A stretch of 64,000 bases of DNA from Clytia hemisphaerica. Taxonomy: Eukaryota; Cnidaria; Hydrozoa; Leptothecata; Clytiidae. The stretch is from NCBI GenBank assembly GCA_902728285.1, contig CACVBU010000939.1, forward strand, positions 1,488,001 through 1,552,000, in the 5' to 3' direction. Positions 39,058-64,000 of the stretch are shown here, one piece after another (the stretch's first letter is position 1; each line of letters opens with the position of its first letter). The notes beneath the pieces are model-generated. The model ran no database searches. It had not been told where the DNA came from and worked only from the letters and a program-made list of their open reading frames with translations. The position numbers and the translations under genes are program-made.

Positions 39058-58822
<19,765 letters not shown>

Positions 58823-59460
58823 TCTTCTTGGAAAGATCCTGATTCAGAACTTCTTCTCTGCCTGTCTGCTGTGCTGTCTGCTTTCTTTTTCGGCTCCAAA
58901 ATTTTCTTTGATTTTGACTTTCTTGGCGCATGCTCTTAAAGCCCCGCGTACACTAAACTTTAAGATGTAGATAGGCTCTAAGGTTTGATGAGCTACGATG
59001 TATCAAGATTCGCAGATGTTAAAACTTTCTCATCCGTTAAGATGTTGAGAGGGTTCGAAAGTTCACAGAACTAAAACCGAAAAAAGGACAGCTTTTTTTT
59101 CATTCCTATGCTTGACGGATTACATTTCACTCAAATGCGAGCATTTAGAAAACGAACATGCCGACATCACGTGCTGCGTGGTCCACGTTCGAATATTCGA
59201 CTTTTTTCCTAGAATTTCTAACAGTAAATTTGACAGTGTGTTTGAAAAAAGGGATTCATACAGGTATATTAAATTCTATTCTAGTTACCAAAAGCAACGT
59301 GGTGGCATCAGAAAGCCTTCTTACGAAAGCATCCACCGAAGGGGGACTTCAAAATATCTGTTCTGAAGGCACGTTCCAGCTGGATATGGCGGCTGTTCTT
59401 ATCTTAGCGAACTAAAGAAAAAAGTCTGCTGGAAAAAAGTGGTCTGTTCTACTGAAGATT
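58823..59460. promoter_or_regulatory. DHX15 5' UTR and upstream region
   Basis: GC-richer than the surroundings just above the ATG, without a TATA box at the expected position. A plus-strand open frame (59158-59415) has no recognised domain. The DHX15 promoter must be here, but its start point cannot be fixed. Confidence 0.4.
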
Positions 59461-60120
59461 TGGACCAGCTCTATCTATCTATCTATATATTTCAGTAGTT
59501 AACAACATAAATGTTTGTTCTCCCTACATATAAAAGCATTAACAAAAATAAGATAAATGAAATTGGTTTAATAATGAAAAATGTTTGTATGTTTATTCAA
59601 TAATAAATATGTAAAAAGTTGTTAATTCTAAAAAAAAATCTAAGTATGTTTGGTTGAGGACAAAGCCTAGGTTATCGAGATTAAGAGTAACGGGCATAAG
59701 GCTAAACAAAATGTTCTGAGAATGCCAAGATACGTGGAGGCAAAGTAGTAATGAGAAGTTTGAGCCTCAGGCTTAAGTCATGAGTAGTAATTAATAATAT
59801 TGACGTTCTAGGCAAACTAAAATGGTGTAAAGTTAAATCAAAAGTTAAATTAAAAGTTAAAAATTTAATTAAATTAAATTTTAAAATAAACCAGTATTGT
59901 GCTAAAAAGATTAATAGACTAACTAGAAATAAAGAGACATAGCTAAAGTAAAAATATTTTTGGTAAGTAGGCAAGTGACGTCAAAACAAAATTGCTTCGA
60001 AGATTAAGTGAGTAGAGTGCAAAGATATATGAATTGGATAAAATAGGTTAGGGCAGGGCAATCCGATGATTAAGTAAAGTGAAAAAGAGGCCTGACGTCT
60101 GGATTTGATTTAAAAAACTA
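59461..60120. other. Intergenic, CTAT microsatellite
   Basis: A short (CTAT)n run near 59472-59490, then AT-rich DNA with TTAAATTAAAAGTTAAA repeats. It includes the 3' flank of the LINE; no clear poly(A) or tail boundary is visible. Confidence 0.45.
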
Positions 60121-60125
60121 ATAAT

Positions 60126-60670
60126 CTAATTCTTTAGAAAATAACGAGAAGTTGCATCTTTAAATTCATTCCTATCTTCCATATTCAAAATGTTAGCTGG
60201 CAATTTATTCCACCAGTTAATAGATGCTGGGATAAATGAGTCCTGGTACGCAATTACACGCCCATGTATTGGTTGGTATTTATTACTATCCCGAACTGGT
60301 TTGGGTAAAATACCAGGCATAACAAGTTTCCCTCCTCTTATATCATGTAAAAGAACGACTGAATCGACTTTTCGATGATGTTCTAGAGGTTTCCAGCTCA
60401 AGTCCTTCATCATTCTAGTGGGACTAGCCTCCCACCTCCAATCAGAATAAACAAACCGGGCCCCTTTTCGTTGGACCATTTCAAGTTGATCGCAAAGTGA
60501 TTGATTTGATATAGGATTCCAAACTGGTGAAGCATACGATACGATTGGTCGGACATAAATGTTGAACGCTTTCTCCTTTATTTTACGAGAACATCCTCGC
60601 AAATTTCTTTGTAAGAACGATCGTTTTTGGTTGGCTTTCTTACAAATAGCATCGATGTGTGTATTCCACT
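60126..60670 (-). CDS. LINE reverse transcriptase, C-terminal part
   Basis: The thumb and C-terminal region of a non-LTR reverse transcriptase (KWNTHIDAICKKANQKRSFL, YVRPIVSYASPVWNP, LEMVQRKGARFV, then LPANILNMEDRNEFK before the stop). It is the continuation of the frame at 63229-64000, split by a 2.55-kb insertion; the frame is the same once the insertion is removed. The type is CR1/Jockey-like. Confidence 0.9.
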
Positions 60671-61115
60671 TAAGCTTCGGCCTAATTGGAGTTGAGTCCC
60701 GAGTGGGATTCGACTTTTCAGACAAAGGATTTTCGTCGATTTTGTACTTAACCATAAATTTATGTCTTTACCTTTTTGGGTTTTCTTTGGAATCGATTCT
60801 CTTCCTCTTCTCTTCGTCATTAGGGATCCCTCGTCATTATGCGTTTAAAATAAGTCCATTCTAATTTGCCGGAACCCGATTTCAACGTCATTGTAACACG
60901 CCCGGAAAAGTACCATACCGATTTAAATATTTGGAAATGATTATCCGTCTTTGTAATACTCTCGGGTACCTAATTGCCGCCCCCCCCCTGCTATTTAATT
61001 TTTCGAAAATTTTCCACTACCCATATTAATTCAGTCCCGAATCTAGCCACATATTTAACACGTTCGGGACAGTCCCGAATTCAACCTTTTTGTTATCAAA
61101 ATCGGGACCGTCCCG

Positions 61116-62205
61116 AATACCGCCTTCTTTATAAACACTCGGAAACGTTTTTTTTTAAAGAAGTCGGAATACTATGTTAGGACAGTAAGTCCATAGTAGT
61201 ATATTCCGCCTTCTTTAGAAACACTCGAAAACGTATATTTTTAAAGAAGGCGGAATACTATGTTAGTGCAGTAATTCCAAAGTAGTGTATTCCGCCTTCT
61301 TTAGAAACATTCGAAAGGGAATTTTTTTAAAGAAGGCGGAATACTATGTAAGGGCAGGAAGTCCATAGTAGTATATTCCGCCTTCTTTAGAAACACTCGA
61401 AAACGTATATTTTTAAAGAAGGCGGAATACTATGTTAGTGCAGTAATTCCAAAGTAGTGTATTCCGCCTTCTTTAGAAACACTCGAAAACGTATATTTTT
61501 AAAGAAGGCGGAATACTATGTTAGTGCAGTAATTCCAAAGTAGTGTATTCCGCCTTCTTTAGAAACACTCGAAAACGTATATTTTTAAAGAAGGCGGAAT
61601 ACTATGTTAGGGCAGTAAGTCTATAGTAGTATATTCCGCCTTCTTTAGAAACACTCGAAAACGTATATTTCTAAAGAAGGCGGAATACTATGTTAGGGCA
61701 GTAAGTCCATAGTAGTGTATTCCGCCTTCTTTAGAAACATTCGAAAGGGAATTTTTTTAAAGAAGGCGGAATACTATATTAGGGCAGTAAGTCCAAAGTA
61801 GTGTATTCCGCCTTCTTTAGATACACTCGAAAACGTATTTTTTTAAAGAAGGCGGAATACTATGTTACTGCTGTAAGTCCAAAGTAGTGTATACCGCCTT
61901 CCTTAGAAACACTCGAAAACGTATTTTTTTAAAGAAGGCGGAATACTATGTTAGTGCAGTAAGTCCAAAGTAGTGTATTCCGCCTTCTTTAGAAACACTC
62001 GAAAACGTATTTTTTTAAAGAAGGCGGAATACTATGTTAGTGCAGTAAGTCCAAAGTAGTGTATACCGCCTTCCTTAGAAACACTCGAAAACGTATTTTT
62101 TTAAAGAAGGCGGAATACTATGTTAGGGCAGTAAGTCCATAGTAATGTATTACGCCTTCTTTAGAAACATTCGAAAGGGAATTTTTTATAAAAGGCGGAA
62201 TACAT
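61116..62205. repeat. 86-bp hairpin repeat array, 13 units
   Basis: Units start at 61116 and then every 86 bases exactly (61202, 61288 ... 62148). Each contains CCGCCTTCTTTA and its inverse TAAAGAAGGCGG, with about 25 bases between, so each unit is a hairpin. A variant loop (CATTCGAAAGGGAATTTT) appears in units 3, 8 and 13 only. Confidence 0.93.
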
Positions 62206-62289
62206 TGTTTGGATTTTTTGTTCTAATATTTTCGCCTTCTTTAGAAATTTTGAAATAAGGAAAATCGGGACTAAAAATTTCTCGTTGCC

Positions 62290-63110
62290 TTATATACTTT
62301 TACTTGAGTCCCGAATCCAATATGTTCGTAAAGTAAATCGGGACTAAAAATTTCTCGTTGCTATATATACTTTTACTTGAGTCCCGAATGCAACCTTTTC
62401 GTAGACCAATTCGGGACCGTCCCGAATCAAACCTTTATATAGACAGATTCGGGACCGTCCCGAAATTTACATTTTCAAAACAAGCTATCATTAGCCCGTA
62501 TAAATAAAGATCTGCCCCACACTTCCCTGATTTTCAAATTCAAGCCGCCATATCCATCTTTTCAGTGACTCAGATATTAAATATGTATTATATATACTTT
62601 TACTTGAGTCCCGAATTCAATATGTTCGTAAGGTAAATCGGGACTAAAAGTTTCTCGTTACTATATATACTTTTACTTGAGTCCCGAATTCAACCTTTTC
62701 GTAGACCAATTCGGGACCGTCCCGAATCAAACCTTTACATAGACAGATTCAGGACCGTCCCGAAATTTACATTTTCAAGACAAGCTATAATTAGCCCGTA
62801 TAAATAAAGATCTGCCCCACACTTCCCTGATTTTCAAATTCAAGCCGCCATATCCATCTCTTCAGTGACTCAGATATTAAATATGTATTATATATACTTT
62901 TACTTGAGTCCCGAATCCAATATGTTCATAAGGTAAATCGGGACTAAAAGTTTCTCGTTACTATATATACTTTTACTTGAGTCCCGAATTCAACCATTTC
63001 GTAGGCCAAATCGGGAATTTTAATTTAGTCCCGAATCCAAACATTTCGTACGCAAAATCGGGACTCAAGTAAAAGTATATATAGTAACGAGAAACTTTTA
63101 GTCCTCGTTT
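62290..63110. repeat. 300-bp tandem array with fold-back end
   Basis: Lines 300 bases apart match almost base for base (for example TTCAAATTCAAGCCGCCATA at 62533 and 62833). Two full repeats plus a third partial one end near 63010. The block ACTTTTACTTGAGTCCCGA then appears inverted at 63063-63105, giving a hairpin with its 62940-62987 partner. TTCGGGACCGTCCCGAA palindromes recur. Confidence 0.85.
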
Positions 63111-63228
63111 ACTATATAATAGTATAAATCAAACCATCGATCAATTTTTTTTTTCATCGATTTCGACTTCCTAACTACGTCGTTCTAGTTCGGGACAGTC
63201 CCGAGCGGGACTCAAGTTAAATTAGGCC

Positions 63229-64000
63229 TAAGCTTCTTGTTTAAAGTCACCCCGAGATATTTGGCATTTGATACTTTCTCGAGGTTCTCGTTATGGATTG
63301 AATAAACAGATTCTATGGGTTTGGTTTTGTTCGTGATGGTGATATGCTTGCATTTTTGTGGGTGGAATTCCATGTCCCAGAGTGTTTCCCATTCTTGTAG
63401 AGCTGTAAGATCCTCTTGGAGAATGAGAGGGTCAGCCATGCTTTCTATGTTACGATATAAATAAGCATCATCAGCGAATAAACAGATATCCGATTGGACA
63501 TAAGAAGGCATATCATTAATGTATATCAAAAATAGCAGTGGCCCAAGCACGGTGCCTTGTGGTACTCCTGACAAAACATTGGCCTTTTTCGAATGTTTCC
63601 CATTTAAGATAACCTGTTGAGTGCGATTACTAAGGAAAGCCTCGATCCATTTCAGTGTGGAGCCACGAATACCATAGTGAGAAACTTTACGACAAAGCTT
63701 AAAATGGTTAACCTTATCGAAGGCTTTGCTAAAGTCTAATAATATTGAATCAGTTTGTTGTTTGTCGTTTAGGTTTTTAGCAAAGTCATTTACAGTGGTC
63801 AATAGTTGGCTTACACATGATCGGTTTTCTCTAAATCCATGCTGGTAATCACTTAACACTTTATTCTTGTTCAAATGGGTCATGATGTTACTGTATATGA
63901 TATGTTCTAAACATTTACAACAAATCGATGTGAGAGACACAGGCCGGTAGTTTTCAGCCTGATTTTTGTCCTTGTTTCCACCTTTATAAACAGGAACAAT
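63229..64000 (-). CDS. LINE reverse transcriptase, RT domain (partial, continues past window)
   Basis: The frame is open to the window edge. RT hallmarks in order: NYRPVSLTSICCK, HGFRENRSCVSQLL, LLDFSKAFDKVNH (first catalytic Asp), SGVPQGTVLGPLLFLIYIND, LFADDAYLY (catalytic Asp pair in FADD) and KYLGVTLNKKL. The endonuclease and start lie beyond 64000. It is a CR1/Jockey-type LINE. Retrotransposition would need the rest of the element, and this copy is split by the 60679-63228 insertion. Confidence 0.93.

Follow-up and report, generated by a model that had tools for sequence, protein, structure and literature searches.

What is the repeat-rich segment of about 2.55 kb that splits a LINE reverse transcriptase frame in Clytia hemisphaerica, and how did it come to lie there? 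The locus is at the end of a 64-kb stretch of DNA, here called the window, whose coordinates are used throughout. The original prediction, made from the letters of the window, read the segment as a clean nested insertion with exact boundaries and left its superfamily unnamed. We examined the insertion site, the host LINE and the other copies of both elements in the same genome, and our analysis leads us to a non-autonomous Merlin DNA transposon, a deletion derivative multiplied in trans and inserted in a young LINE, to which we give a probability of roughly 94%.

The Element Has Exact Boundaries within a LINE Frame

Re-reading the letters of the window confirmed an element with inverted termini and an exact duplication on both sides. 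The sequence TAAGCTTC stands at 60671–60678 and again at 63229–63236, as the left and right copies of a target-site duplication (TSD), and encloses a segment of 2550 bp (60679–63228, plus strand). The element's left end, its left terminal inverted repeat (TIR; 60679–60701, plus strand), is GGCCTAATTGGAGTTGAGTCCCG, and the reverse complement of the right end (63206–63228, minus strand) begins GGCCTAATTTAACTTGAGTCCCG. The two match at 20 of 23 positions, with four further matches at positions 27–30, beyond the 23-position TIR. GGCCTAATT occurs once per strand in the 64-kb window, solely at the two element ends, and both ends recur in other copies.

On the minus strand, the interrupted LINE has an upstream part (63237–64000) that continues past the window end and carries a reverse transcriptase domain (RVT_1, PF00078; E 1.4e-36 in a Pfam search), while the downstream part (59470–60670), which consists of the frame end (the stop codon ends near 60126) and a 3′ tail to about 59470, by itself gave no Pfam family match. 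Alignment to two other LINE copies, L052 and L053, also starts at 59470. In the uncut sequence, the LINE frame passes into the element from either side and so is broken. When the flanks are joined with one TAAGCTTC, they form a single open minus-strand frame, reading …KYLGVTLNKKL-KWNTHIDAICKK…, of at least 680 codons, which stays open to at least window coordinate 64728 (728 bases past the window). The frame was thus still open here at the time of insertion, as had been proposed. The LINE 3′ end adjoins a TCTA-type microsatellite (59470–59500), and the neighbouring sequence at 59321–59465 is a repeat found at many dispersed places, with 92–95% identity.

Uninterrupted LINE Copies Are Present in the Same Genome

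We then searched the same genome (417,433,876 bases in 951 contigs) for the empty site, using 400 bases of joined flanks as the query. Among the 40 matches listed, 12 LINE copies at 95–100% identity cross the junction unbroken, 11 of them over 400 bases and one over 368, and three of the 12 are 100% identical to the query. Seven further matches at 69–74% also cross it; one close match, on C3, covers just positions 252–400 of the query and is uninformative on the insertion site. Among the matches listed, the window's copy alone is split, into 1–200 and 193–400, and the two parts overlap by the 8 bases of the duplication and no more. In the four unbroken copies examined in sequence (L051–L054), TAAGCTTC is single and at the matching place. 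The host is thus a multi-copy family with a reverse transcriptase domain, and its 12 near-identical unbroken copies imply that the family is young and that the element arrived in the window copy afterwards: the LINE came first, and the Merlin element later entered that LINE copy. With a heterozygous empty allele in mind, the flank outside the LINE (58600–59465) was searched in the own genome; it matched at full length once, at the window itself, and the other matches cover its last ~150 bases alone, a repeat common to many loci. One of the examined LINE copies, L054, is interrupted at 1904–2936 by a different insert, about 1.03 kb long, with the ends CAGGGGGGGGTCAACAT…ATGTTGACCCCCCCCTG and GAAATGG on both sides.

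These copies bear directly on the reading in which the 2.55-kb stretch belongs to the LINE lineage, as the extra segment of a variant LINE and not as a later insertion. The 12 close copies run through the site without the segment, the frame is broken with it and open when it is removed, and copies of the element stand in many other contexts with TSDs of their own. We consider this reading refuted, with a probability close to nil. The uninterrupted LINE that the insertion called for is thus present in the genome, and the opposing outcome, with every LINE copy containing the segment, was not seen among the matches listed.

Other Copies Have the Same Boundaries and Their Own Duplications

The terminal pattern, with at most one mismatch, had 97 matches in the genome against 0 for the reversed control. 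About twenty of the 97 belong to a second related family with the terminus GGCATAATTGTAGTTGAGTCCCG, and the left end of this family that was examined (C291:416920-417520) has short tandem repeats of its own. The left 332 bases of the window element had at least 45 matches; among those listed, 16 besides the window cover at least 328 bases at 96–98% identity, and another left-end match is 100% identical over 265 bases.

The TSD survey covered 28 copies with both ends paired and both flanks readable. Exact TSDs flank 21 of them (19 of 8 bp and two of 9 bp, in C22 and C913), and these copies span 703 to 8539 bp. C254 and C137 are one site, with flanks identical over the 956–1500 bases compared, so that the 21 copies represent 20 sites. 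Two other copies (C649b and C928b) have a TSD with one mismatch, and five (C488, C850, C898, C355 and C672) have no recognisable TSD. This exceeds chance: of 754 deliberately mispaired flanks, three pairs agreed with at most one mismatch, and some of these agreements are probably C74 paired with C928b, by appearance the same or a duplicated site. The flanking bases of the C928 copy (1598 bp) and the C74 copy (703 bp) are nearly identical, and the two probably sit at one duplicated site. Outside the 28, GCGCCAGT flanks copy C554 on each side, and the left terminus of this copy is altered. The expectation that other copies would show the same ends and a duplication therefore held for the boundaries and for the 21 exact cases, and failed for the five copies lacking a TSD and for the left terminus of C554; copies with different boundaries, which would have spoken against the insertion, were not seen.

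We also considered whether the arrangement could be an assembly artefact that joins unrelated pieces. Some array-bearing copies do look oddly joined: the left flank of C850 is that of C22 (98.8% over 1032 bases) and its right flank is that of C488 (99.9% over 1231 aligned bases). Both C850 and C488 are also without a TSD, and the whole pattern points to recombination between copies or to misassembly across the arrays. At the window copy, however, the TSD is perfect and the LINE frame carries on beyond the element, which random joins would not yield, and an artefact at this locus is highly unlikely. In summary, the empty LINE sites and the other copies with the same boundaries bear out the clean nested insertion.

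Long Copies with the Same Ends Carry a Merlin-Type Transposase

The window copy has no transposase. Longer copies with the same ends do: the 8539-bp copy C22, with the 9-bp TSD ATTATAACC, includes an open exon assigned to DDE_Tnp_IS1595 (PF12762) at 8.5e-22, and in the 7949-bp copy C850 an open exon matches the same family at 2.3e-22. In C850, a preceding exon runs up to GTAAGT and the next starts after TATAG, with a canonical GT-AG intron between them. Once spliced, the C850 product aligns with positions 3–137 of PF12762 (7e-25) and matches the NCBIfam IS1595 model (NF033547) with 93.9 bits against a cut-off of 75, and its weaker NCBIfam matches (IS1 and an unrelated family) fall below their cut-offs. 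Inside a third element, C796 (5914 bp, 8-bp TSD AGATTTAT), lies an exon with 96% identity to the C22 exon, and C133 contains one with 97% identity to it. An unbroken transposase gene was not seen in these four, since the first exon, as assembled, has a frame change in C22 and C850 and in-frame stops in C796 and C133. The motifs IEIDESLFG, YSDGWPAY and NKIEGAW can be read in C850 and C22, and their acidic residues, which stand where the catalytic triad would be expected, are candidates for it. More diverged Merlin-like transposases exist elsewhere in the genome, about 40–56% identical in the first exon (L043, L044, L046, L047, L049 and others), and one of these loci, L049 (on C804), has a related terminus within reach.

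Because hAT and P elements also make 8-bp TSDs, an 8-bp duplication by itself does not separate hAT, P and Merlin, and the window element might be a non-autonomous member of hAT, P or a similar superfamily. The same-ended elements argue otherwise, as they contain an IS1595-type transposase exon. When eight ORFs of the long copies and their flanks were scanned against Pfam, two matched DDE_Tnp_IS1595, the sole family found, and six matched no family; a hAT or P transposase was not found among them. The ends begin with GG, and the two 9-bp TSDs (C22 and C913) suit the 8–9 bp of Merlin. Another superfamily is hence very unlikely.

Merlin elements are characterised by 5′-GG ends, 8- or 9-bp TSDs and a DDE_Tnp_IS1595 domain, in the account given in PMC8101967. 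The family studied here has TSDs of 8 and 9 bp, TIRs that start with 5′-GG and DDE_Tnp_IS1595 in the same-ended long copies. As quoted there, Merlin TIRs measured 24–462 bp in the first families and 23–29 bp in some later ones (PMC8101967); those of the window element, at 23 positions with three mismatches, are at the short edge of the 24–462 bp range. The evidence thus points to Merlin/IS1595 as the superfamily, which the first reading had not named.

A Single Deletion Derivative Appears to Have Spread Recently

The window element follows the C22 element to position ~442, through its left unique part (60702–61120), and at the junction …GTCCCGAATAC|CGCC… jumps to C22 position ~4925, where the 86-bp array starts. 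This junction of a deletion of about 4.5 kb is common to 13 of the 18 elements compared, namely the window copy, C488, C594, C184, C169, C291, C453, C460, C313, C775, C649b, C254 and C137, of which C254 and C137 are one site. The other five are C22 and C850, both without the deletion, and C33, C44 and C898, which differ. Over 642 bases of unique terminal sequence, pairwise divergence among the 13 short copies is 0.8–2.5% (leaving aside the C254/C137 pair, at 0.0), and their divergence from C22 is 1.7–3.2%. One common junction together with low divergence implies that a single deletion derivative spread recently, after losing the transposase region. From this spread, we infer that transposase was supplied in trans.

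Tandem Arrays Change in Length between Copies

Two thirds of the window copy is tandem array. By repeat analysis, 86-bp hairpin units fill 61120–62203 (12.6 copies, 92% matches), 300-bp units in which the inner TIR motif ACTTGAGTCCCGA recurs fill 62291–63016 (2.4 copies, 96% matches), and a right unique part follows at 63017–63205. Within the 2.55-kb element, the motif GTCCCGA/TCGGGAC from the TIR is found 27 times, against two occurrences in the remaining 61.45 kb of the window. Among the 13 short copies, the 86-bp marker count ranges from 9 to 15 (19 in C22 and 12 in C850) and the 300-bp marker count from 0 to 8 (five in each of C22 and C850). As the counts differ between copies, the arrays must change in length.

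For the 86-bp unit, a 21-bp stem is predicted, with a DNA folding energy of −19.6 kcal/mol and a z of −7.06. We compared 159 units, after dropping 43 of 202 that were cut off or alike at fewer than 60 of 86 positions, in a set without C137 and C850, which are probable duplicates of C254 and C22. Variation per position is 1.8% in the 3′ arm, 4.1% in the 5′ arm, 7.4% in the loop and 12.0% in the spacer; since selection of the units relied on the 5′ arm, the fair comparison is that of the 3′ arm with the spacer alone. Across the 21 pairs of the 159 units, a two-sided compensatory change was found in one unit (pair 1–58), and the other departures from pairing are one-sided or unpaired. In its own genome, the 86-bp unit pattern had 290 matches against 0 for the control. 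The unit was also considered as an independent satellite, of which none is evident: among the matches listed, 17 of the 18 contigs with the unit have a match to the element's termini as well, the exception being C236.

It is conceivable, but in our view unlikely, that the arrays are functional, with the 300-bp array, through its copies of the inner TIR motif, offering extra predicted transposase-binding sites and the 86-bp hairpins, with their little-varying 3′ arm, being held by constraint, so that the whole would form an expandable subterminal recognition array. In C775, however, the 300-bp marker has no full match, and exact TSDs flank the small copies C74 (703 bp) and C44 (989 bp), both of a diverged subfamily. 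These three copies argue that long arrays would not be needed for transposition, which weakens the idea of required arrays. Internal tandem repeats have been described in several Merlin families, with a possible role in seeding satellites (PMC8101967).

Proposed Origin of the Insertion

Our preferred reading, that of a Merlin deletion derivative, would join these observations as follows. A longer, transposase-bearing element most probably suffered the internal deletion of about 4.5 kb while keeping both ends and the tandem arrays, which gave the 2.55-kb form. This form would then have been multiplied by transposase provided in trans from a source active now or formerly, presumably through binding of the terminal repeats and cut-and-paste chemistry. 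A staggered cut of 8, sometimes 9, bp in the target would leave each insertion flanked by a duplicated target, here TAAGCTTC inside the reverse transcriptase frame of a young LINE copy.

With this, the annotation of the window is settled: a repeat block that looked structureless is tied to a mobile family, for which this genome contains a likely source of transposase. The nested, young and precisely bounded insertion dates two events relative to each other, and the common junction combined with the array changes from copy to copy offers a natural series for asking how such arrays lengthen and shorten within a DNA transposon. Knowledge of transposition itself is unchanged; this is a clear and well-documented case of an ordinary process.

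Comparison with Known Systems

A description of this family was not found in the literature searched, which was mostly without subscription papers. As far as could be checked, the window element represents a new family of Merlin, judged against descriptions in the literature.

It shares with the Merlin superfamily (Feschotte 2004, as known through PMC8101967) the GG termini, the 8- or 9-bp TSDs, DDE_Tnp_IS1595 in long copies and internal tandem repeats, as these features are given in that source. It differs in that the window copy has no transposase and is two thirds array, made of 86-bp hairpin units and of 300-bp units in which the inner TIR motif abounds, and in that array length in the family varies between copies. 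With the bacterial insertion sequences IS1595/IS1016, to which Merlin is related, it has in common the PF12762/NF033547 transposase domain and 8-bp TSDs (the latter as noted in PMC8101967), whereas the eukaryotic host, the GT-AG intron in the transposase gene and the large non-coding arrays are features of the elements described here. The foldback transposon Tetris of Drosophila virilis, as presented in PMC4079207, resembles the window element in being apparently non-autonomous with variable internal tandem repeats. However, the repeats of Tetris also form long satellite arrays, while no free satellite is evident here among the matches listed, and Tetris is a foldback element that is not shown in that account to be Merlin (PMC4079207).
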